DNA of 55,202 nt, taken from NCBI GenBank assembly GCA_025361485.1, contig JANYLA010000142.1, forward strand, positions 1 through 55,202, written 5' to 3'. The position numbers and the translations under genes were made by a program. Position 1 is the stretch's first letter. Every line of letters begins with the position of its first letter. This stretch comes from Bacteroidales bacterium (lineage in GTDB: Bacteria; Bacteroidota; Bacteroidia; Bacteroidales; Tenuifilaceae). Under the pieces are notes generated by a model. It was not told where the DNA came from and made no database searches. It saw nothing but the letters and a program-made list of their open reading frames with translations. Below, piece by piece: positions 3,001 through 21,018 of this stretch.

Positions 3001-3698
3001 TTCCATTTTAGTAGCAAGCTAACATACCACGATTTAAAAGCAGGATATGTAGTACCATTTAAAATTTCACCTGCAGAACCATTCAATACCCATCCGGCAA
3101 TTTTATCCTCGTAGCGTGTAGCCACATATAAGTACATGCGAGCAAAGTCTCCTTTGAACTCATCAATTGGTTCAAATACAACTCCGGAATAACCTGATGC
3201 TGGATCAGAATTTCCTAATTTACTACCGTTCGATGATGTCCACGATACCGTTTTAACTTCTCCATGAGGAAAACTACTTCTGCGGTTATTCACGTAGCCA
3301 TCGGTTGGAACGATATGATGTGCATCCGAGCGCTGTGGAGAGGCTTTGCCCAACCAGCTATCGCAAAAAGTGTGTTCACGATTATAGCAATCCGATTTGC
3401 TAGAGTATGAACCGCACCGATCGCTACTTGCGTGATTAAACCAATAGTTTGCTGTACCATCCGCTTTTATAGAGTACATATCCCAGACTTTTCCTGAGGG
3501 AAGATTATCTGAGGTGGTATAAACCGTATAGAGACCATCATATCCTAAATCAGTATGCCCCTTTATGATATTATACAAAGCCGTTTTCAATTCAGCACCT
3601 GTTTTCCCTACTGCGTTGTTGTAATAACCTGCAGGTTGTGCAAAAACGGCAAATGTTAAGCTTACCAGTAAAACAAAAGAGAGTAATCGTTTAATCAT
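93..3698 (-). CDS. Secreted endonuclease I family nuclease with putative-Ig domains and six tandem ~99-aa repeats
   Basis: This is a large (about 1201 aa) exported nuclease. A signal peptide (residues 1-20, ending AVFA before Q21) precedes an endonuclease I domain at about 22-270, with Cys-rich loops, the NREH motif (106-109, His109 the expected general base), the DAHHIVPTDGYVNNRR block (125-140) and NRNPYIDHPE near 255. The family cleaves RNA and DNA outside the cytoplasm. Two putative-Ig (He_PIG-like) domains follow at about 280-360 and 370-455, then a jelly-roll-like module at about 460-600, then six copies of a ~99-aa beta repeat from 603. I chose ATG 3698 because it opens a good signal peptide; an upstream in-frame GTG at 3734 would place residues before it. 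The protein ends soon after repeat 6 in FNSSKLCFEK with no recognisable T9SS sorting domain, which is odd for this architecture. Family assignment is confident; substrate and the role of the repeats are unknown. Confidence 0.9.
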   Translation of the reverse strand: MIKRLLSFVLLVSLTFAVFAQPAGYYNNAVGKTGAELKTALYNIIKGHTDLGYDGLYTVYTTSDNLPSGKVWDMYSIKADGTANYWFNHASSDRCGSYSSKSDCYNREHTFCDSWLGKASPQRSDAHHIVPTDGYVNNRRSSFPHGEVKTVSWTSSNGSKLGNSDPASGYSGVVFEPIDEFKGDFARMYLYVATRYEDKIAGWVLNGSAGEILNGTTYPAFKSWYVSLLLKWNEQDPVSPKEIARNNAIYALQHNRNPYIDHPEYAEAVWSSGPVALSFTSSAITTATINQLYTYSVSVTGPVGSTFTISAPTKPAWLTLTTGTNGNATLSGTTTSTGSFDVVLYVTDGASIKTQAFTIQAAALEGLKFTSSPTLSATAGSLYSYNVTTSDNANPSATITITTTAKPDWLSISSVINGTATLSGTPLPANVGANVVTLSATDGSTTVTQTFTITVGVAGVGKIETFENMPTASPSSYSSRSWVGDNSISWTATLARTDQTINTKAICFKADATADLLSGTISGGCSQISFKHQQMFTGSGGSVTLFINDQQIGSPVSVNTAVQTAVINNFNVTGNFTIKLVSNGASRIAIDDLSWVGAATNVYPVVANISTLPVNPTTNDNVVISASISDSDGTIKEAIVKWGLSESALNNILPMTLDGSVYKATIPKQAEGTVYISVNAKDNLDAASSVLFSYDVVQNEMPAISNINNDPLTPVTGQVIRITATITDADGSIEDAWLNWGTSSSALTNQLNLVFLDGKYEATIPAQDQARTVYLRISTRDDMGAETTSTYNFVVAQNAIPTITNITRLPQNPYVGDEVTISAAIVDSDGTIQEALLKWGTSANNLNNALTMTLDGEFYKAIVPAQSSACTIFLSINAKDNRDAIATELYNYAVLQNQLPTVSNIIYSPQSPLTGQTISVSASITDSDGAIQEVWLLWGTTAENLSNNIAMTLSDGKYSATVPSQSVAGTIYISINAKDNLNGITTATNNISVTQNQSPAISAIALAPQSPITGQIITLSANITDNDGSIQQAWIKWGTAANDLSNNVNMTYSDGKYNATIPAQSSAVTIYLSVNAKDNLDVESTSLFNFAIAQNQLPSISNLTISPVSPTTGQAITVSATLTDADGNILDAWVDWGNAANSLTNKVSLYFSAGSYSCTIPAQSAAGTVYLAITAKDNIQETSTSSFNLSWFNSSKLCFEK
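125..1890 (-). repeat. Six in-phase ~297-bp coding repeats in the nuclease gene
   Basis: The repeats encode about 99 residues each. Shared features are an opening PxISNI, then SPxTGQxIxxSAxITDxDG, an AWxxWG block, a DGKYxATIPAQ strand, TIYLSINAKDN and a closing QNQ. Repeat 6 starts at 410 (reading leftward) and repeat 1 starts near 1890. They resemble beta-sandwich stalk modules and probably arose by tandem duplication, which also makes this segment liable to copy-number change and assembly error. Confidence 0.85.
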
Positions 3699-3757
3699 AT
3701 AAAAAAGTTTTAATGCGTTTGTCAGCAACAACACCTAATCGAGAATACGCATTGACT

Positions 3758-3835
3758 CTTTCAGGTCTACCGACTCTGAAAGGTCATTTTCCGATGAAAT
3801 TTCCTGTCAGAGCTCGAAGAACCTATCAGAGTAAT
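3758..3835. repeat. Short degenerate CTGAAAG/CAGAG intergenic repeats with a hairpin
   Basis: Between the nuclease gene and the cyclo-ligase gene, CTTTCAG (3758-3764) pairs with CTGAAAG (3776-3782) around an 11-nt loop. It is followed by two near-identical direct copies, CCTGTCAGAG and CCTATCAGAG, near 3803-3832. They lie upstream of the nuclease start on its strand. They resemble small palindromic intergenic repeats common in this phylum, but I cannot count copies genome-wide. Confidence 0.4.
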
Positions 3836-3882
3836 TTCGATAAATTCGAAGGAAAAGGAACGATTGCTGATAATCATTTGGT

Positions 3883-4437
3883 TTAATTTGTTGAAATAAC
3901 AATATCAACCGGAACATCAAGGGATGATACCGGAACTTCGTCAATAATCTGAAAATCGTAGCCAACGGCTACTTTGTATGCGTTGGTTTGCTTAAGAAAG
4001 CGATCGTAAAACCCTTTGCCCCGGCCCAATCGGTTACCCTTTTTATCGAAAGCAATTCCTGGGATAATGGCAAAATCAACATCCTTTGGGTTTACCAACT
4101 CCTCGGTTTTGGGTTCATGAATACCAAAAGATTCATTGGCAACAAGGTTTTGCAGTCCGTTGAAGGCTCTCAATTCAAGCGTTTCGCCCACAACCATTGG
4201 TAAAACCATTTTCTTTTCGGCAGCCCATTTTTGTACAAAATGATGCGTGCTCACCTCATCGGGCATCGACCAGTATGCAAGAATAACCTTGGCTTGAATA
4301 AATTGAGGTAATGATTCAACGTGATTAAAAATAATCTCGGAATCAATAATTGCATTCTCAGGTGAAAAGGTCTTTTTTTTCTCCTTGATCAACTTTCTTA
4401 ATTCCTTTTTGCGACTATTTACATCTTCTTGATTCAT
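3883..4437 (-). CDS. 5-formyltetrahydrofolate cyclo-ligase
   Basis: A 184-aa cytoplasmic enzyme expected to convert 5-formyl-THF to 5,10-methenyl-THF using ATP, in folate one-carbon metabolism. Evidence is the N-terminal basic helix with RKKELRKLIKEKKK, the central AYWSMPDEVSTHHFVQKW region, and the C-terminal signature PGIAFDKKGNRLGRGKGFYDRFL-like segment (about residues 126-148), which holds the nucleotide/substrate loop. Length is normal for the family. It follows the large secreted protein gene after a 94-nt gap with no promoter motif visible, so it is probably the last gene of the operon that starts at the SUI1 gene. Confidence 0.93.
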   Translation of the reverse strand: MNQEDVNSRKKELRKLIKEKKKTFSPENAIIDSEIIFNHVESLPQFIQAKVILAYWSMPDEVSTHHFVQKWAAEKKMVLPMVVGETLELRAFNGLQNLVANESFGIHEPKTEELVNPKDVDFAIIPGIAFDKKGNRLGRGKGFYDRFLKQTNAYKVAVGYDFQIIDEVPVSSLDVPVDIVISTN

Positions 4438-4531
4438 TAACCGAAGAGTTTTAAAAGTTTAAAAATAACTTAGATCAATTACATATCCCATTGATGAATG
4501 GTAATCAGAAAAAAACACTAAAATTGATTGG

Positions 4532-7366
4532 TTATTGACCGTAAAAATCTACAAATATACTAAACGAGTTAAACGGTAAAAAGTTATCACCTGCCCATCC
4601 TTGCTGTAGTTTAAAGCGAATTGGGTACCTTGTTCGGAACATATTTACATCCGTAAAAATTTCAAAGCCAAACGATTTCATTACCCGGGAATATCTGCCT
4701 GAAGAGGTTTTAAATTCATTCGTTGCATAATCGAAGAATCCGTTCAACGAAATCCGTTTTAGATATGCAAGAGAACCGATTGCAAAGTCGGGGTATGCTA
4801 TTGGCAATAAATAATCGACAGAAATGGAGCTAAATCTCTCGGAGTAAAAATCAGAGTAACCACGAGGAAAGATAATCTTATTGGGTAAAAAATATCGCTG
4901 AATTTTTTGTTTCTGAAAGCTTTGCTTAATAAGCCAGCTGTGAGTTTTACCAATCCCTGGTAAATAGATTAAAAATGCGCCTGAAACCAATGATCCAAAA
5001 TTGTTTCGATTAAACGGAGCATCCTCGAAGTTGACATCTGCGGAGAAGCCCAATCGAGGTCGAACATTTTTTAAGGCTTGGTTCTGTAGTGATGAAAAGT
5101 AAATCTGGTAGTTGAATCGATGAAATCCCTTATGATACAAACTATCGCTGGTCGATAGAAAATAATCATTGGTGCTTTTTATCTGAAAAAATGGGTAAAG
5201 TATCGTTGAAAAACGATTCGCCGAAAGCGTTAAGGGAAGATAAACGCTAAGGGTCGATTCCTTTCGTTGCTTTACCGTGTTTAGTAAATCAGTGTTATTA
5301 ATATGATAAATCCACGGAGAAATGCCACTCAATTCAAATTGCAATGAAAACACAGGAAACAAGCCATAATACTGATAATTAACACGAGCTAAATGTGTTT
5401 TATCATATCCATACCCTGCTGTTAAAACGGATGTACCCGTAAGGTTTTGAGAATAAACGGTTGCCCCGGGTTTAATATTTACTTCACCTACTGCTAGCTG
5501 ATTTATATCAAAATAAAACGGTGTCCAGCTATGAATATTTGCTATCGTTTTTAAACCTCGATATTTATGAATATCATAGGTTTTATTGGGTATTTCGATT
5601 GAATCGATATTAAAATTCTCTGATGCCCTTAGCCCCGCAGTTATCTTATCATCGTCAATTGTGCTTAATGTAATTTGTGCATTTGTAGTATCAATATTTG
5701 CAGTTGAGATGCAATAACCCGTTGAGGAGTAACTTGAAAAAACTATCCTTTTTGAATTTGAATCATAAAAAGGATCTGTTGCCCCAAAAGCAGTATTGGT
5801 AAGTTGGCTTACTTTTTTTGTAGAAACATCAAAGGCAAATACATCCTCCTTATAATTATTAGATGTTGAGAAGAAAATCAAGTCGCCTGATGATGAAATG
5901 GAATGAATGTCGCGAAAAGTTGGGCCATAAATCACTTCGCAAACACCGGAATTATTAAGCCCAACAATCGATTTTCCATTATCACTTACAACGCCTATTA
6001 ATAATTGCTTTTTATCTTCATTCCATGAAATTTCAAATGGTTGATAGTAGTTTGGTAGATTTACGCTCTTCTGCTTTACCCCGTTTAAATTGAAAGCAAC
6101 AATCGCATTACTTCCATCGTCATTTCCGCATATTGCATAAACAAAGCCATCGCTAGGGTTATAAATCGGCGAAAAGTATCTTCCTCTATCTGAAATTGTT
6201 TTCACTTCGTCCGATATTGCATTATACCATTTTATTACGCTAAAACTCTTATACTCCCAACGAATATGGGGTGCATATTCAGTCCAAAAAATATTTTGTT
6301 TCTGATATGATGGAATGCTGGTTAAATAGCCGGGATGGAACACCGTTTTTTCCTTATTCGTTTTAAAATCAATAATTACAAATCGAGGTAAAGTTGAAAG
6401 ATCTTTTTTGTAGACAACCATTGAGCTGTCGCTCAAAAGATTTGGATATCGATATTCGGTATACTCTTTAACCTCATTGGTTAACGATTGATAATTTATG
6501 AAACCTAAATCATTTTGTTTTGATTTCCAAAGGATATCCAAATTGTTGAATGCTAATTTAAAAAGCTGTTTTCTCGATAGCCCAGTCTGAAATTTCAACC
6601 CAAAATAAAAGGGAGAAATTGGTAATGGAATCCACGAGACTGCACCTAGCGTTTTTGACCAAACTTTATTTCCATAAGTAAGTTTAGCATAACTTACTAA
6701 CTGGTAACCGAAACTATAGTGATTTGGAATATTATCACGATAGGAACCCAAAAGCCACTTATCGTACTTAAATCGATTCGTTTTGGTTAAAAAGTGTGCT
6801 CGGTAATACTGATAAAAATCGGCTTGTCTTCCTCTGCCTGAGTTTGATGTTGCTGTTTCGAAAGCTACGGCATCACCTTCAAGAAACCAACTTGGAACAA
6901 GTCCAGCAGAATAGCCAACTACTTGTTCTCCAAAAATAAATGATAATGGTTTAACAATTCCTCTGTTAAGTTTAAATAGCTGTGATGTATGTCGTGTTTC
7001 GTGCAACGCCAGCTGAGTAAGCCAAGGCTGTGCGCTTGTTGATGAAGGTGGCTGTGAAATAATCTCCATCCGCTTTGGAGCCCAAGCCACAAATCCATTT
7101 GAAAGGGTACTATGATTATGAATTACAATATCAAAGATTTTTTGTTTAGCACCCAATGATTTGGGTGTAACGCTATGGATAACGCTTAATAGATTTGCAT
7201 ACCGAAACGCCATTTTTTCCGCTTCAGATGGAAAAAGTATTCGGAAGTTTTCTGTTTTTATTTGTCTCCACTTTGTTCCGAATGGCTCAACTCCTGTTAT
7301 GTAGAACTGTGCCATTGATTGCGAAGCCAAAAAAAGAAAAAAGAAAAACAAAAAGCGTTTTATCAT
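4532..7366 (-). CDS. Secreted gluzincin-like metallopeptidase fused to a beta-propeller and probable outer-membrane barrel
   Basis: A 944-aa protein with a signal peptide (1-19, ending SMA before Q20). Residues about 30-250 look like a peptidase-MA/gluzincin domain: HETRH at 122-126 fits the zinc motif HExxH, and E163 in FLEGDA fits the third ligand downstream. A middle part (about 290-580) has repeated short beta segments with WD40-like/TolB-propeller character, such as the SGDLIFFSTSNN and DSNSKRIVFSS blades. The C-terminal part (about 640-944) is rich in alternating aromatic/polar beta strands and probably forms an outer-membrane barrel. The genomic context is translation/folate genes and says little about function. 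Proteolytic activity is inferred from motifs; the protein could instead be a structural or assembly factor at the cell surface. Confidence 0.7.
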   Translation of the reverse strand: MIKRFLFFFFLFLASQSMAQFYITGVEPFGTKWRQIKTENFRILFPSEAEKMAFRYANLLSVIHSVTPKSLGAKQKIFDIVIHNHSTLSNGFVAWAPKRMEIISQPPSSTSAQPWLTQLALHETRHTSQLFKLNRGIVKPLSFIFGEQVVGYSAGLVPSWFLEGDAVAFETATSNSGRGRQADFYQYYRAHFLTKTNRFKYDKWLLGSYRDNIPNHYSFGYQLVSYAKLTYGNKVWSKTLGAVSWIPLPISPFYFGLKFQTGLSRKQLFKLAFNNLDILWKSKQNDLGFINYQSLTNEVKEYTEYRYPNLLSDSSMVVYKKDLSTLPRFVIIDFKTNKEKTVFHPGYLTSIPSYQKQNIFWTEYAPHIRWEYKSFSVIKWYNAISDEVKTISDRGRYFSPIYNPSDGFVYAICGNDDGSNAIVAFNLNGVKQKSVNLPNYYQPFEISWNEDKKQLLIGVVSDNGKSIVGLNNSGVCEVIYGPTFRDIHSISSSGDLIFFSTSNNYKEDVFAFDVSTKKVSQLTNTAFGATDPFYDSNSKRIVFSSYSSTGYCISTANIDTTNAQITLSTIDDDKITAGLRASENFNIDSIEIPNKTYDIHKYRGLKTIANIHSWTPFYFDINQLAVGEVNIKPGATVYSQNLTGTSVLTAGYGYDKTHLARVNYQYYGLFPVFSLQFELSGISPWIYHINNTDLLNTVKQRKESTLSVYLPLTLSANRFSTILYPFFQIKSTNDYFLSTSDSLYHKGFHRFNYQIYFSSLQNQALKNVRPRLGFSADVNFEDAPFNRNNFGSLVSGAFLIYLPGIGKTHSWLIKQSFQKQKIQRYFLPNKIIFPRGYSDFYSERFSSISVDYLLPIAYPDFAIGSLAYLKRISLNGFFDYATNEFKTSSGRYSRVMKSFGFEIFTDVNMFRTRYPIRFKLQQGWAGDNFLPFNSFSIFVDFYGQ

Positions 7367-14061: not shown

Positions 14062-15348
14062 ATGCTGAAACGTTCAGATATCGAGGTGATGTCGCCCGCT
14101 GGGAATTTTGAATCGCTAATGGCAGCAATTCAAGGAGGGACTAATGCTGTATACTTTGGTGTTGGACACCTCAACATGCGGGCAAACTCAAACGTAAATT
14201 TTACAGTTTCGGACTTAAAAGAGATTGTTAGAACTTGTAACGAAAATAATGTTCGCTCCTACTTAACCGTAAATACTGTTCTTTACGATAACGATTTACC
14301 TGCGGTAAAGGAATTGCTAAAAGAGGCAAAAGTTGCTGGAGTAAGCGCCATCATCGCCTCCGACCAAGCCGCTTTGATGGGTGCATTTGAACTAGGCCAC
14401 GAAATCCATCTATCGACTCAACTCAATATTAGTAACCTCGAATCGTTAAAATTTTATGCTCATTGGGCCGATGTAGTTGTTCTTGCGCGAGAGCTAACCC
14501 TTGAGCAGGTTTACGAGATATACCAAGGGATTGAACGTGAGAATATCACTGGTCCTTCTGGTAATAGAATCAAAATAGAGATGTTCGTTCATGGAGCTCT
14601 TTGCATGGCCATTTCGGGGAAATGCTATTTAAGCCTTCATCAGGAGAATATCTCTGCCAATCGTGGTGCATGCCTTCAGATTTGTAGAAGATCATATACC
14701 GTTCAAGAAACCGAAACCGGCAATGAGCTGGAAGTTGATAATGAGTATATCATGTCTCCCAAAGATTTATGTACCATCAACTTCTTGAATAAGCTAATTG
14801 ATGCTGGTGTTCGTGTTTTGAAAATTGAGGGTCGCGCCCGCTCAGCCGAATATGTTAAGACAACAACCCAATGTTACAGCGAAGCGGTTGAATCGCTTTG
14901 TAACAATACTTATTCCGATGAAAAGATTGAAGGTTGGATGAAACGACTTTCTACCGTTTTCAATCGTGGTTTTTGGGATGGTTACTATTTAGGTCGTAAG
15001 CTAGGTGAGTGGAGCCATGTTTATGGTAGCCTAGCAACAGAAAGAAAAATATATTGCGGAAAGATAACAAACTATTTTTCGAACCTAGGCGTCGCAGAGG
15101 TTGCCGTTGAAGCGCACGAGCTATACCTCAACGATAAGATCCTAATTATTGGCCCAACCACAGGTGTAATCGATGCGGTTGTAACGGAAATTAGGGTCGA
15201 TGAGAAAACGGCTGAATTTTGTCCTAAGGGTGTAAAATGCTCAATTCCAATATCCGCTCCGCTAAGACGATCGGATAAGTTATATCGTGTAATTTCAGAG
15301 GAGGAGTTGGTTAAAATACAGAAGAATAGCAACAAAAGGAGTTTTTAA
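14062..15348 (+). CDS. U32 family protein, TrhP (YegQ)-like
   Basis: A 428-aa cytoplasmic protein of the U32 'peptidase' family. It starts with the hallmark MSPAGNFESL (10-19), then VYFG, an IHLSTQLN segment near 115-122, FVHGALCMAISGKCYLS around 176-191, and GACLQICRRSY; Cys181, Cys188, Cys204 and Cys208 are the conserved cysteine set that can hold an Fe-S cluster. The later IMSPKDL and LKIEGRARSAEYV blocks match TrhP better than the collagenase-named members. TrhP acts in prephenate-dependent 5-hydroxyuridine formation in tRNA, so a tRNA modification role is more likely than proteolysis. Monocistronic by spacing. Confidence 0.82.
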   Translation: MLKRSDIEVMSPAGNFESLMAAIQGGTNAVYFGVGHLNMRANSNVNFTVSDLKEIVRTCNENNVRSYLTVNTVLYDNDLPAVKELLKEAKVAGVSAIIASDQAALMGAFELGHEIHLSTQLNISNLESLKFYAHWADVVVLARELTLEQVYEIYQGIERENITGPSGNRIKIEMFVHGALCMAISGKCYLSLHQENISANRGACLQICRRSYTVQETETGNELEVDNEYIMSPKDLCTINFLNKLIDAGVRVLKIEGRARSAEYVKTTTQCYSEAVESLCNNTYSDEKIEGWMKRLSTVFNRGFWDGYYLGRKLGEWSHVYGSLATERKIYCGKITNYFSNLGVAEVAVEAHELYLNDKILIIGPTTGVIDAVVTEIRVDEKTAEFCPKGVKCSIPISAPLRRSDKLYRVISEEELVKIQKNSNKRSF

Positions 15349-17240: not shown

Positions 17241-18152
17241 ATGACCTACTTAACTAATGAAAAATTGTTCTCAAAAGAATGGTTTAAATCCTACGCTCTG
17301 ATAACAATTGGTGCATTTATTCTTGCCGGAGGATTTGTCCTATTTATCGATCCACATCGGATTGCACCGGGCGGTGTATATGGGATAGGAATTATTGTTC
17401 ACTACTTAACCCAGGGAATGTTTTCATGGGCCCCCAAAGGACTTCCCATTGGAACCGTTGGATTAATCCTAAACATCCCGTTAACCATTCTCGGAATCAA
17501 AATACTCGGACCACGATTTGGTGTAAAAACAGTTGTTGGTTTTCTTTTATCTTCAATCTTTATTGATCTTCTTCACGGAATACTTGGCTATGCTCCGCTT
17601 GTTGATGACATGCTTTTATCATCCGTTTTTGGTGGAGTGCTGATTGGTTTTGGGTTAGGCTTAATCTTTAAATCCAAAGCAACGAGCGGTGGTTCAGATA
17701 TTATCGCCATGATATTCGCTAAATACACCCGCTTACCTTTAGGTCAACTAATGATTTATGTTGACTCGGCTATTGTACTTTTAGCGCTACTCGCCTTTAA
17801 GGATTGGAAAATTCCGATGTACTCGTGGATTGTAATTTACATTACTGGCAAGGTTATCGATATGACCATGCAAGGGGTTAGCTACGATAAGACTCTTTTT
17901 ATTGTATCCGACAAATACGACGAAATTCGCGATAAAATTATTAACGACCTCGAAAGAGGCGGTACGATGATTAAAGCTGAGGGGATGTACAAAGGGCAGG
18001 AAAAGAAACTAATTTTTACCAACGTAAGTCGTCGCGAGGTTTATATTTTGCGTGATTTTATTCACTCCATCGATCCAGAAGCCTTCATTACAGTTATTGA
18101 TGCCAATGAGATATTAGGTCTAGGATTTAAGTCTCTGAAGAACGATAATTAA
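17241..18152 (+). CDS. YitT family membrane protein (DUF161/DUF2179)
   Basis: A 303-aa inner-membrane protein with about five to six transmembrane helices in residues 15-205, including the glycine-rich IAPGGVYGIGIIVHYLTQG and KATSGGSDIIAMIFAKYTRLPLG motifs typical of YitT proteins. A cytoplasmic DUF2179 domain occupies about 215-297, with the GGTMIKAEGMYKG and REVYILRDFIHSIDPEAFITV segments. Function of the family is uncertain; transport has been suggested. Single-gene unit, closed by a bidirectional terminator shared with the convergent SDR gene. Confidence 0.88.
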   Translation: MTYLTNEKLFSKEWFKSYALITIGAFILAGGFVLFIDPHRIAPGGVYGIGIIVHYLTQGMFSWAPKGLPIGTVGLILNIPLTILGIKILGPRFGVKTVVGFLLSSIFIDLLHGILGYAPLVDDMLLSSVFGGVLIGFGLGLIFKSKATSGGSDIIAMIFAKYTRLPLGQLMIYVDSAIVLLALLAFKDWKIPMYSWIVIYITGKVIDMTMQGVSYDKTLFIVSDKYDEIRDKIINDLERGGTMIKAEGMYKGQEKKLIFTNVSRREVYILRDFIHSIDPEAFITVIDANEILGLGFKSLKNDN

Positions 18153-18171
18153 CAATTCAATATATTGCCAC

Positions 18172-18203
18172 AAAAGCCTGATAGAAAAATCTATCAGGCT
18201 TTT
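18172..18203. terminator. Bidirectional intrinsic terminator
   Basis: A 13-bp perfect stem, AAAAGCCTGATAG (18172-18184) with CTATCAGGCTTTT (18191-18203) and a 6-nt loop. A-tract and T-tract flanks let it serve both the YitT gene (+) and the SDR gene (-). Confidence 0.85.
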
Positions 18204-18266
18204 AAATTTTTGTAATGATATAACTATAACTCAAGTGGTGATCAAAAAATAATAGGAAATATATTT

Positions 18267-19820
18267 CTACCAACTTATTGGGAAATAATCTTTTAAAAAC
18301 CTCCCGCTCCAATGCTTGCCGGTGTTTATTCCATCAATAAATGGATCACAAACGCGTGCAGCACCATCAACAATATCAAGCGGAGGTTGAAAATCGTGCA
18401 CCTGCTGCTTGTGCTTGGCCAATTCGGCAGGATCCTCATCGGTAACCCATCCGGTATCAACAGCATTCATAAATATGCCATCCTTGGCAAGGTCGCTGGC
18501 AGATGTGTGGGTTAGCATATTAAGCGCAGCCTTTGCCATGTTAGTATGCGGATGGCGATCGGCTTTATTAAAGCTATGAAACTTTCCCTCCATTGCCGAA
18601 ACGTTTACCACATGCTTCTTACCGGTATAATCCTTCCGCATCAATGGAGTAAGCAGATTACAGAGTACAAATGGAGCAATGGAGTTTACGAGCTGCACCT
18701 CCACCATTTCGAGGGTTTCAATCTGCCCAAGCTTTAAACGCCAGCTATTGGTGGTTCGCAAATCGACCTGCTGAAGGTCAGCATCAAGTTTTCCTTCGGG
18801 GAATACCTCTCGGGCCTCAATGGAATTATCGAATTTATATGGCACTTGCGAAAGTTGTGCCGATGCCCGAATGCCAATACCGGGTACCTGCCCATTCCAG
18901 TTAACAGCTAAAGTCTTTTTCGATTCTGATCCTTCGTTTCTAGCACCTTCAATTTCTCTTAAACACTGCTGATGATGCGAAAGTAACTGCTGCACATCTT
19001 TAGAATGCTGATGAAACGGAAGCAACTCGTTAGCCATCAAATGAGAGTAAAACCCCGCTGGCCTACGAACGGTTTGTGCAGCATTATTTATCAGGATATC
19101 GAGCCTTTCATACTTCTGCTCAACATACGTGGCAAACAGCTCTACGCTAGGAATGTGTCTTAGGTCCAGCCCATAAATATGTAAGCGGTGGCTCCAATCA
19201 TTATAATCCTTCTCCTTGGCAAACCGTATTGCGGAATCAGCAGGAAAGCGTGTTGTAGCAATAACTGTTGCACCTGAGCGGAGCATCATTAAGGTTGCAT
19301 GGTATCCAATCTTAAGTCGCGATCCTGTTATTAGAGCAATCTGACCGGTCATGTCACACCGCTGAAACCGCTTTCTATAGTTTAAATCACCACACTCCGT
19401 GCACATCGAGTCGTAAAAATGGTGAATCTCTGTGTATGTTTTCTTACACACATAGCAGTTTTGCTCCGAGGTAAGAGAGTGTTTCTCGCTTATGTTAACT
19501 GATGCTGATATGGCAACTTGGGTTGGTGCTTCAAAAACGTGCGCTATACGTGCGCTTCTAATACTTGTTGCTGCACGAGCTTTGCGATTGTTTGTATTTT
19601 CAACTTGTTTGCGGGCAACCTTAACGCTTTTATTTCTTTTTTGTATTTCGGCTTTATCGGGTCGGGTGATTTGCCCAGCAGCTTTCATCAACTTTAGCAA
19701 CTGCTCCTCCGACAAATGAATAAGTTGATCTCCATTTTGAAGCAAGTGTTCTAAAACTGTTATACAGTTATTGATTTCTGTATTAGTTAATTTTCCTTGT
19801 TGTTCTGCTTTTTTTTCCAT
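18267..19820 (-). CDS. SDR-fold protein with N-terminal zinc ribbon and substituted catalytic tyrosine
   Basis: A 517-aa protein, about twice the usual SDR length. Residues 1-115 are helical and charged. A CxxC...CxxC zinc-ribbon-like motif follows (C122, C125, C140, C143). The Rossmann core starts with [14 protein letters not shown] (162-175; a TGxxxGxG-like cofactor loop) and NNAAQ (245-249). A long insertion (about 255-375) separates this from the active-site segment. Ser409 in VNVSA is present, but the YxxxK position reads TNMAK (426-430), so the tyrosine is Thr and only the lysine remains; the usual PG after strand 6 reads DTGW. It may bind NAD(P) without classical dehydrogenase chemistry, or use another residue. 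Nothing nearby indicates a pathway. Fold confident, function unknown. Confidence 0.75.
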
Positions 19821-19845
19821 TAGCGATCCCCTCTTTCTTCGAGCG

Positions 19846-19853
19846 CAAAGATA
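19846..19853 (-). promoter_or_regulatory. Bacteroidota -7 element (TATCTTTG) for the SDR-like gene
   Basis: On the minus strand this reads TATCTTTG, a perfect TAnnTTTG, 26 nt upstream of the start codon at 19820. Confidence 0.6.
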
Positions 19854-20067
19854 ATGTTGTTTTGGACTTAATAATACAAGCTCCAGAAATGTGAAAATTG
19901 AGTTCTTTTGATACCTAGAAATAAAACATAAATATTAACTGCATTATGGGTATTCATTAGTTAGCCTATTTCCTACACTTACTCTTAAACAATTCATTTC
20001 TACTTTAGCAAAATATTTATAGGGTTATAATTTTCGAGTATATGATATAAATCGATTTTCAAATCAG

Positions 20068-20075
20068 TATTTTTG
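20068..20075 (+). promoter_or_regulatory. Bacteroidota -7 element (TATTTTTG) for rsgA
   Basis: A perfect TAnnTTTG, 20 nt before ATG 20095; it probably drives the rsgA-TIGR00266-mnmH operon. Confidence 0.6.
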
Positions 20076-20094
20076 CTTCTCATATTTGCGAATA

Positions 20095-21018
20095 ATGAAA
20101 AGCGGATTAGTATTAAAAACTACAGGTAGTCGGTATACGGTAAAAGATGATAATGGAGCGATTTTTTATTGCTCCATCAGGGGAAAACTCCGCCTAAAAG
20201 GTGTTAAAACAACAAATCCAATAACCGTGGGAGATATTGTTGATTTTGATGTAGAAAACCACGACACTGGTTCGATTAGCAGAGTTCACAATAGAAAAAA
20301 TTACATAATCCGTCGATCAACCAATCTTTCTCGCGAATCACATATTATCGCAGCAAATCTCGATCAAACCTTACTAATTATAACTATTGATTTTCCTGAG
20401 ACTCAGCTCGCTTTTATCGATAGATATTTAGTTACTTCAGAAGCTTATAGTATAAAAACAATTTTAATATTCAATAAAATAGACCTTTATAGCGATGAGT
20501 TAAACAATAAACTTAATTACTATATTTCAATTTATGAGAAAATAGGCTACCAATGTATAAAGGTTTCTGCACAATCGGGTGAAAATCTATCTATACTTAA
20601 GGATATTCTGACCAATAGAACTAGTCTCATTTCTGGTAATTCTGGAGTTGGCAAATCAACTCTAATTAATAAGATAGAGCCATCACTAAATCTTAAAACC
20701 GAGCTCATTTCATCCTACCACCTTATGGGCAAACACACTACAACTTTTAGTGAAATGTTTGAGCTAAGTTTTGGCGGTTACTTAATTGATACTCCTGGTA
20801 TTAAAGGTTTTGGTTTGGTTGAAATAGATAACAGTGAGCTTTACCACTATTTCCCCGAAATATTTAAAATTGCATCGGATTGTAAGTTTTATAATTGTAC
20901 ACATATTCATGAACCTGGTTGTGCGGTAATTCGAGCTGTTGACGAAGGGTCGATTAGTCCATCACGCTATATGAGCTATTTGAGCATTCATGATGATGAT
21001 AATGATAAATACCGTTAA
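20095..21018 (+). CDS. rsgA: Ribosome small subunit-dependent GTPase A
   Basis: A 307-aa circularly permuted GTPase that assists 30S subunit maturation. An OB fold occupies about 1-70. The G motifs come in permuted order: G4 NKID (127-130), then G1 GNSGVGKS (181-188), then G3 DTPG (232-235). The C-terminal zinc site uses C263, C268, H270 and C276. I prefer ATG 20095 over a TTG three codons upstream, because ATG gives the usual KSGLVLKTTGSRYTV opening. It heads an operon with the TIGR00266 gene (20-nt gap) and mnmH. Confidence 0.95.
   Translation: MKSGLVLKTTGSRYTVKDDNGAIFYCSIRGKLRLKGVKTTNPITVGDIVDFDVENHDTGSISRVHNRKNYIIRRSTNLSRESHIIAANLDQTLLIITIDFPETQLAFIDRYLVTSEAYSIKTILIFNKIDLYSDELNNKLNYYISIYEKIGYQCIKVSAQSGENLSILKDILTNRTSLISGNSGVGKSTLINKIEPSLNLKTELISSYHLMGKHTTTFSEMFELSFGGYLIDTPGIKGFGLVEIDNSELYHYFPEIFKIASDCKFYNCTHIHEPGCAVIRAVDEGSISPSRYMSYLSIHDDDNDKYR

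Follow-up and report, generated by a model that had tools for sequence, protein, structure and literature searches.

The window, as we call the whole 55,202-nucleotide stretch of Bacteroidales DNA analysed here, contains on its minus strand, at 18267..19820, an open reading frame of 517 amino acids (ATG at 19820, stop at 18267-18269); stops are abundant on the plus strand of the same interval. An earlier note, made from the sequence alone, had placed a 517-residue protein here, which we confirm, the reading strand being minus. The frame and its near full-length homologues, 62-87% identical, define the gene of a predicted zinc-finger SDR protein, in which an acidic start, a basic helical arm and a Cys4 finger stand, in that order, ahead of the SDR fold.

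The homologues were collected in two steps. Named genomes were searched first and yielded 181 confirmed relatives; the best 80 of these, near full length and 62-87% identical, were kept. The HPHTNM stretch described below was not among the search patterns, one of which contained Cys140. The wider set drew on these 80, on whole-genome searches in three phyla, on further stretches and on four plasmid homologues, and its 190 matches at blastp E <= 1e-25 reduced to 161 non-identical sequences, none being removed as short.

Domain organization and fold

The arm (residues 38-100; 19521..19709, minus strand) was recognized from its charge over the 161 homologues (mean net charge +11.1, range 0 to +18; +9 in the window protein) and from a model of the N-terminal part alone (pLDDT 78, pTM 0.36). 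In this model, helices are followed by a beta-hairpin bearing the first CxxC and by a helix beginning at the second CxxC. The earlier note had seen a CxxC...CxxC motif ahead of the fold, and the family bears this out as CYxC-x14-CxxC (residues 122-143; 19392..19457, minus strand), with C122, C125, C140 and C143, and the x14 spacing between the two pairs, in 161/161 sequences. The motif is probably a zinc finger, as predicted from its four cysteines, and its modelled form, a hairpin with one CxxC and then a helix that begins at the other, is an arrangement known from treble-clef fingers. Comparison of the finger with solved folds gave no convincing match, either by Foldseek (best E 5.5) or, for residues 117-153, by VIA (best Z 2.4, rmsd 2.3, 34 residues aligned), a result that is no evidence for a new fold.

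Pfam finds the SDR domain in two stretches, residues 160-255 and 371-472 (adh_short, E 2.6e-18). The fold is indeed split, as had been noticed, although the insertion, given before as 120 residues, is about 115 residues long by the Pfam stretches (residues 256-370; 18711..19055, minus strand; seen in Pfam, model and alignment). The distance from N246 to N379, which spans it, varies from 90 to 157 across the 161 homologues, with a median of 132. An AlphaFold2 model built from a 50-row alignment has a mean pLDDT of 71.7; it falls below 50 in the insertion (296-316 and 326-362) and in the loop 411-417, and averages 65 over the active-site stretch 421-430, so that the model is weak right at His423. 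Residues 154-517 of the model superimpose on tropinone reductase I (1AE1 chain B) with Z 21.1 and rmsd 3.2 over 235 residues, and 50 structures among the matches listed give Z 19.8-21.1 and rmsd 2.4-3.5 over 205-245 aligned residues, the best being plain ketoreductases and dehydrogenases. Sequence and model together confirm the predicted SDR Rossmann-type fold.

An active-site helix without the YxxxK tyrosine

The position of the SDR YxxxK Tyr is occupied by Thr426 (HPH-T426-NMA-K430), in the altered helix HPHTNMAK that carries His423, Thr426 and Lys430 (residues 423-430; 18531..18554, minus strand). That Thr replaces the Tyr had been proposed from the window alone and is borne out by the family: Thr stands at 426 in 81/81 rows when the window protein is aligned with the best 80 of the 181 relatives, and in 161/161 rows of the wider set, where residues 423-428 read HPHTNM and residue 430 is Lys without exception, and Tyr is found in 0/161. 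Helix 424-438 is unbroken in the model, in keeping with Thr426 as the residue at the Tyr position. The four HMMER alignments listed are divided, two setting T426 opposite the Tyr and two setting H425 there with a one-residue gap.

The NNAA, Ser and Lys remarked on earlier are retained across the family. The catalytic Asn and Lys, N379 and K430, are present in 161/161, and the catalytic Ser position 408 is Ser in 133 sequences and Thr in 28. The NNA motif after strand 4 has N245 in 153/161 and N246 and A247 in 161/161, followed at position 248 by Ala (142), Cys (17) or Ser (2). Of the TGxxxGxG-like cofactor loop (here TGSRLKIG, residues 165-172; 19305..19328, minus strand), the TG and the final Gly remain, but the middle Gly is replaced by Lys170 in 161/161, as alignment shows; Arg168 is equally invariant, and the loop reads TGxRxKIG family-wide. 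The residues without variation in the 161 rows further include Q249, T250, D353 and W360, besides N246, A247 and N379. Outside the finger region, tyrosines are conserved at Tyr173 (145/161), Tyr258 (155/161) and Tyr512 (160/161), and the last two are, by their conservation, candidates for an active-site Tyr at a different position. By contrast, of six further SDR loci in the window's genome (L118-L123), five have ORFs with the ordinary Y-x-x-x-K, and the sixth (L122) is without an ORF that passed the filter.

Compared with six near relatives, the window protein is 80-87% identical with dN of 0.085-0.14, and synonymous change, for which the program gave no rate (value -1), we read as saturated. 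At such divergence the conservation is not due to chance. The invariance of His423, His425, Thr426, Lys430 and the four finger cysteines, each 161/161, further indicates a site that is constrained and not decaying.

Distribution of the family

Searches for the family covered bacterial genomes and plasmids. At E <= 1e-30 it is present in 24/395 Bacteroidota genomes (the window's own included), in 49/240 genomes of Bdellovibrionota, the phylum of a Halobacteriovorax genome (G434) from which one of the loci (L059) derives, and in 38/246 genomes of Planctomycetota, the phylum of a Scalindua genome (G435). Four homologues lie on Deinococcus and Actinomycetota plasmids. Within a set of 40 genomes only the window's own has the family, the best match elsewhere being an ordinary SDR stretch (E 1.6e-7). 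In a tree made by a quick method and containing several long branches, the window protein groups with Prolixibacteraceae and other Bacteroidota rows. Some Bacteroidota (L112-L116) have a second subfamily of 453-457 amino acids that is 33-38% identical and also carries HPHTNM-x-K; one genome (G241) carries both the main family and this subfamily. Another genome (G439) has two full-length copies (L193 and L194), which share 63% and 64% identity with the query and both have HPHTNM-x-K intact.

The two plasmid homologues for which gene tables exist are annotated 'SDR family NAD(P)-dependent oxidoreductase', a label that conceals these departures. A search of the open PMC literature returned no paper that we recognized as describing the family, which does not exclude publication, and this conserved bacterial protein is apparently uncharacterised and overlooked.

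A phage connection was considered and rejected: PHROG 3142 matches the 517-residue protein at 4.8e-88, but as a generic SDR profile, since it also matches 14/14 control genomes and a further ten sites in the window's own genome. No viral relatives were found in a phage collection or, by pattern scan, in viral contigs, and a defence role was dismissed as PADLOC gave no match.

Gene neighbourhood

In the window (17241-21018) yitT and rsgA are separated by the SDR gene, which runs on the opposite strand and has a GC content of 0.42-0.45 against 0.33-0.40 in the surrounding 11 kb. An rsgA match was obtained in 11 same-family relatives, and in 8 of them (L210, L211, L213, L214 and L216-L219) yitT adjoins rsgA without the SDR gene, across a gap of about 20 to 150 bp; yitT is absent from the flank examined in the other three (L212, L215 and L221), and likewise in three genomes of the same genus (L207-L209). 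Because of this adjacency, the reversed strand and the higher GC, the SDR gene was likely gained here as a single gene, as judged from sequence comparison, and its neighbours in the window therefore tell little about its function. For the same reason, rsgA was rejected as a functional clue. A scan for promoters and terminators gave, for promoters, no excess over shuffled sequences. About 3 kb away (14062-15348) lies a protein that by eye resembles peptidase U32, a family that includes RNA-hydroxylation members.

Neighbours elsewhere were taken from the loci of the wider set, which comprise the best matches and chosen others rather than every positive genome. Within 120 bp of the SDR gene on the same strand, a crude ORF caller gave 129 genes in 67 families. 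One of these families, PF09905, which Pfam names 'DNA-binding protein VF530', is found at this distance in 7 loci of three phyla: four from Scalindua/Brocadiaceae (L034, L058, L065 and L072), one from the Bdellovibrionota draw (L196) and two from Bacteroidota (L032 and L060). In a further locus (L042) VF530 lies 218 bp from the SDR gene, in a row of SWIB, DUF6172, VF530 and SDR genes on one strand (3617-6527; families assigned by Pfam in this locus) that recurs in L058, L065 and L072, all from Scalindua/Brocadiaceae.

The two genes also co-occur. Of 240 Bdellovibrionota genomes, 49 have the family, 58 have VF530 and 26 have both (odds ratio 5.6, two-sided p 8e-7, kinship ignored); the genes lie within 10 kb of each other in 8 of these 26 and farther apart in 18, and several of the loci have one common gene order. 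VF530 is present in 20/24 family-positive Bacteroidota genomes versus 127/395 overall (one-sided p 1.4e-7, kinship ignored), with 19/20 for close orthologues and 2/5, which is no link, for genomes with the second subfamily. The corresponding figures for Planctomycetota are 11/38 versus 29/246 (one-sided p 0.0013, kinship ignored). The window's genome has one VF530 gene, on a different contig from the SDR gene. On that contig (C149; L205, 224-3170) it occupies 1474-1704 between two DEAD-box genes identified by eye, just upstream of one helicase gene and divergent from the other, and VF530 might in its own right partner a helicase. The recurrent association offers a concrete pair of proteins for joint testing.

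SF2 helicases were found in the representatives' flanks in 12/65 distinct contexts, against 2.8 expected from the density of PF00270 in 12 genomes (237 matches, 4.75 per Mb); the nominal p of 4e-5 belongs to a test picked after the data had been seen, 53/65 contexts are without such a gene, and the 12 include some of RecQ type. Genes resembling DEAD-box helicases are direct same-strand neighbours in L024, L080 and L164 (gaps of 4-90 bp) and in some Winogradskyella loci, and one (98-1453 of L068) lies upstream of the SDR gene at a distance of about 20 bp. Observed once, or in a single lineage, were an RNA pseudouridine synthase (L189-L192), an HRDC-bearing RNase D-like exonuclease (L198), a radical SAM protein (L203), a peptidase U32 (L019) and the leucine-rich-repeat protein of L181/L182; for many of the remaining families next to the gene, no role with nucleic acids is evident.

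Some further neighbours were observed. Two genomes of the Planctomycetota draw encode, 15 bp after the SDR gene, a leucine-rich-repeat protein (L182, 4549-5724; L181, 4305-5480), and on a Deinococcus plasmid (L089, 7086-7499) the SDR gene is followed after 14 bp by one for a short protein without a Pfam match, whose start by eye resembles the leucine-rich-repeat protein. In Winogradskyella (L028, 4476-4925) a DnaJ + KTSC protein is encoded directly upstream, and its homologues are so placed in 16 loci.

Discussion

Interpretation starts from the observed architecture, the invariance of the site and the lack of the Tyr throughout the family. Our tentative preference, held with limited confidence, is for an active NADP(H)-dependent SDR that uses chemistry of His423, Thr426 or both and is brought to RNA, DNA or an RNP by its arm and finger. 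Binding of NADP(H) would be retained through the loop, Arg191 after strand 2, Asp219, NNA and Lys430; the Arg191 of TTRFP, Asp219, NNA and Lys430 are, judged by other SDRs, presumably NADP(H)-binding residues. Hydride transfer would likewise be retained, the proton being handled by His423, at K-7 as in the Tyr spacing of FabI/FabL, by Thr426, or by both. That His423 lies in the active site is proposed from this Yx6K-type spacing. Arg168, Lys170, Arg252 and Arg253 would form a basic pocket. We infer more weakly that arm and finger carry the protein to RNA, DNA or an RNP, and that it shares a process with VF530 and DEAD-box helicases. The suggestion in the earlier note of a non-dehydrogenase was not established by the alignment, the cofactor site, Asn, Ser/Thr and Lys being kept and a His standing at the FabI/FabL Tyr spacing. 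Its alternative, a nucleic-acid-associated use, gained indirect support: the basic arm, the Cys4 finger, the adjacency and co-occurrence of VF530 and the excess of helicases together suggest, as features of sequence and gene order, a role linked to nucleic acids.

It is also possible, and only slightly less likely in our view, that by analogy with SDR5C1 the protein is a pseudoenzyme, its SDR domain binding NADP(H) as a structural or sensing module of a scaffold or nucleic-acid-binding factor. The absence of the Tyr from 161/161 sequences and the presence of arm and finger would suit this, as would SDR5C1 mutants with reduced or absent dehydrogenase activity that still support tRNA methylation and cleavage (PMC3526285). 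A site of purely structural use should drift, however, whereas the rebuilt HPHTNM-x-K helix is invariant across phyla and in both subfamilies sampled, as are N246, A247, Q249, T250, D353 and W360 among the 161 rows, and this argues against a pseudoenzyme. Nor does loss of the Tyr prove inactivity, as E. coli FabG keeps activity when Ser, Tyr or Lys is removed, one at a time or in combination (PMC7973133).

We give similarly guarded credence to an ordinary reductase of small molecules or acyl carriers whose proton donor has been displaced to Tyr258, Tyr512 or His423, with a finger that serves only oligomerisation or folding and with incidental gene neighbours. The near-universal Tyr258 and Tyr512 speak for this, as do the plain ketoreductases and dehydrogenases among the best fold matches, the spread of close neighbours over 67 families and the likely gain of the window gene singly between unrelated genes; adjacency to VF530 in three phyla, with co-occurrence in each, stands against it.

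An unlikely elaboration is that a nucleic-acid-borne NADP(H) enzyme with the His/Thr site, together with VF530 and DEAD-box helicases, acts by reduction or some other editing on a base, a sugar or a damage product of RNA or DNA, which, if true, would be a nucleic-acid modification or repair activity, so far unrecognised, built on the SDR scaffold. A private mutation of an ordinary SDR, which the earlier note had thought homologues with a normal YxxxK might reveal, or a sequencing or ORF artefact, is ruled out with hardly any residual doubt, since all 161 homologues carry the change, none having Tyr426, and near full-length relatives are 62-87% identical elsewhere.

A family of several phyla in which every aligned homologue lacks the Tyr and the site around it is frozen gives a clean natural case in which to ask what substitutes for the Tyr, or what becomes of an SDR after its enzymatic role ends. 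SDRs are among the largest enzyme superfamilies, and the Tyr is their textbook acid. The family shares with classical SDRs such as FabG, tropinone reductase and RhlG (PF00106/PF13561) the Rossmann-type fold, Asn, Ser/Thr, Lys and NNA, and also the Arg after strand 2 found in NADP(H)-using members. In contrast to them it has no YxxxK Tyr, has Lys170 for the middle Gly of the loop, carries the Cys4 finger and basic arm in front and is split by an insertion of about 115 residues. With neither the Tyr nor the classical loop it is not filed as a classical SDR, and by sequence it is a distinct variant within the superfamily.

The closest parallel for the position of His423 is in FabI and FabL, which a review gives as Yx6K and as Asn-Ser-Tyr-X6-Lys with Tyr151 and Lys158, respectively (PMC9260719). 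By comparison of motifs with this literature, Asn379, Ser/Thr408 and an invariant residue at K-7 are in common, but that residue is here His423 (His423-x6-Lys430 in 161/161) and not Tyr. Sequence comparison revealed no nearer kinship to FabI/FabL than to other SDRs, and no connection with fatty-acid genes was apparent among the same-strand neighbours up to 120 bp away. SDR5C1 (HSD17B10, HSD10) has a working dehydrogenase site, acts with TRMT10C and is not known to have a zinc finger. As a component of mitochondrial RNase P it offers an analogy, drawn from the literature only, for an SDR that does RNA work independently of dehydrogenation, its dehydrogenase activity being dispensable for the RNA role (PMC3526285).
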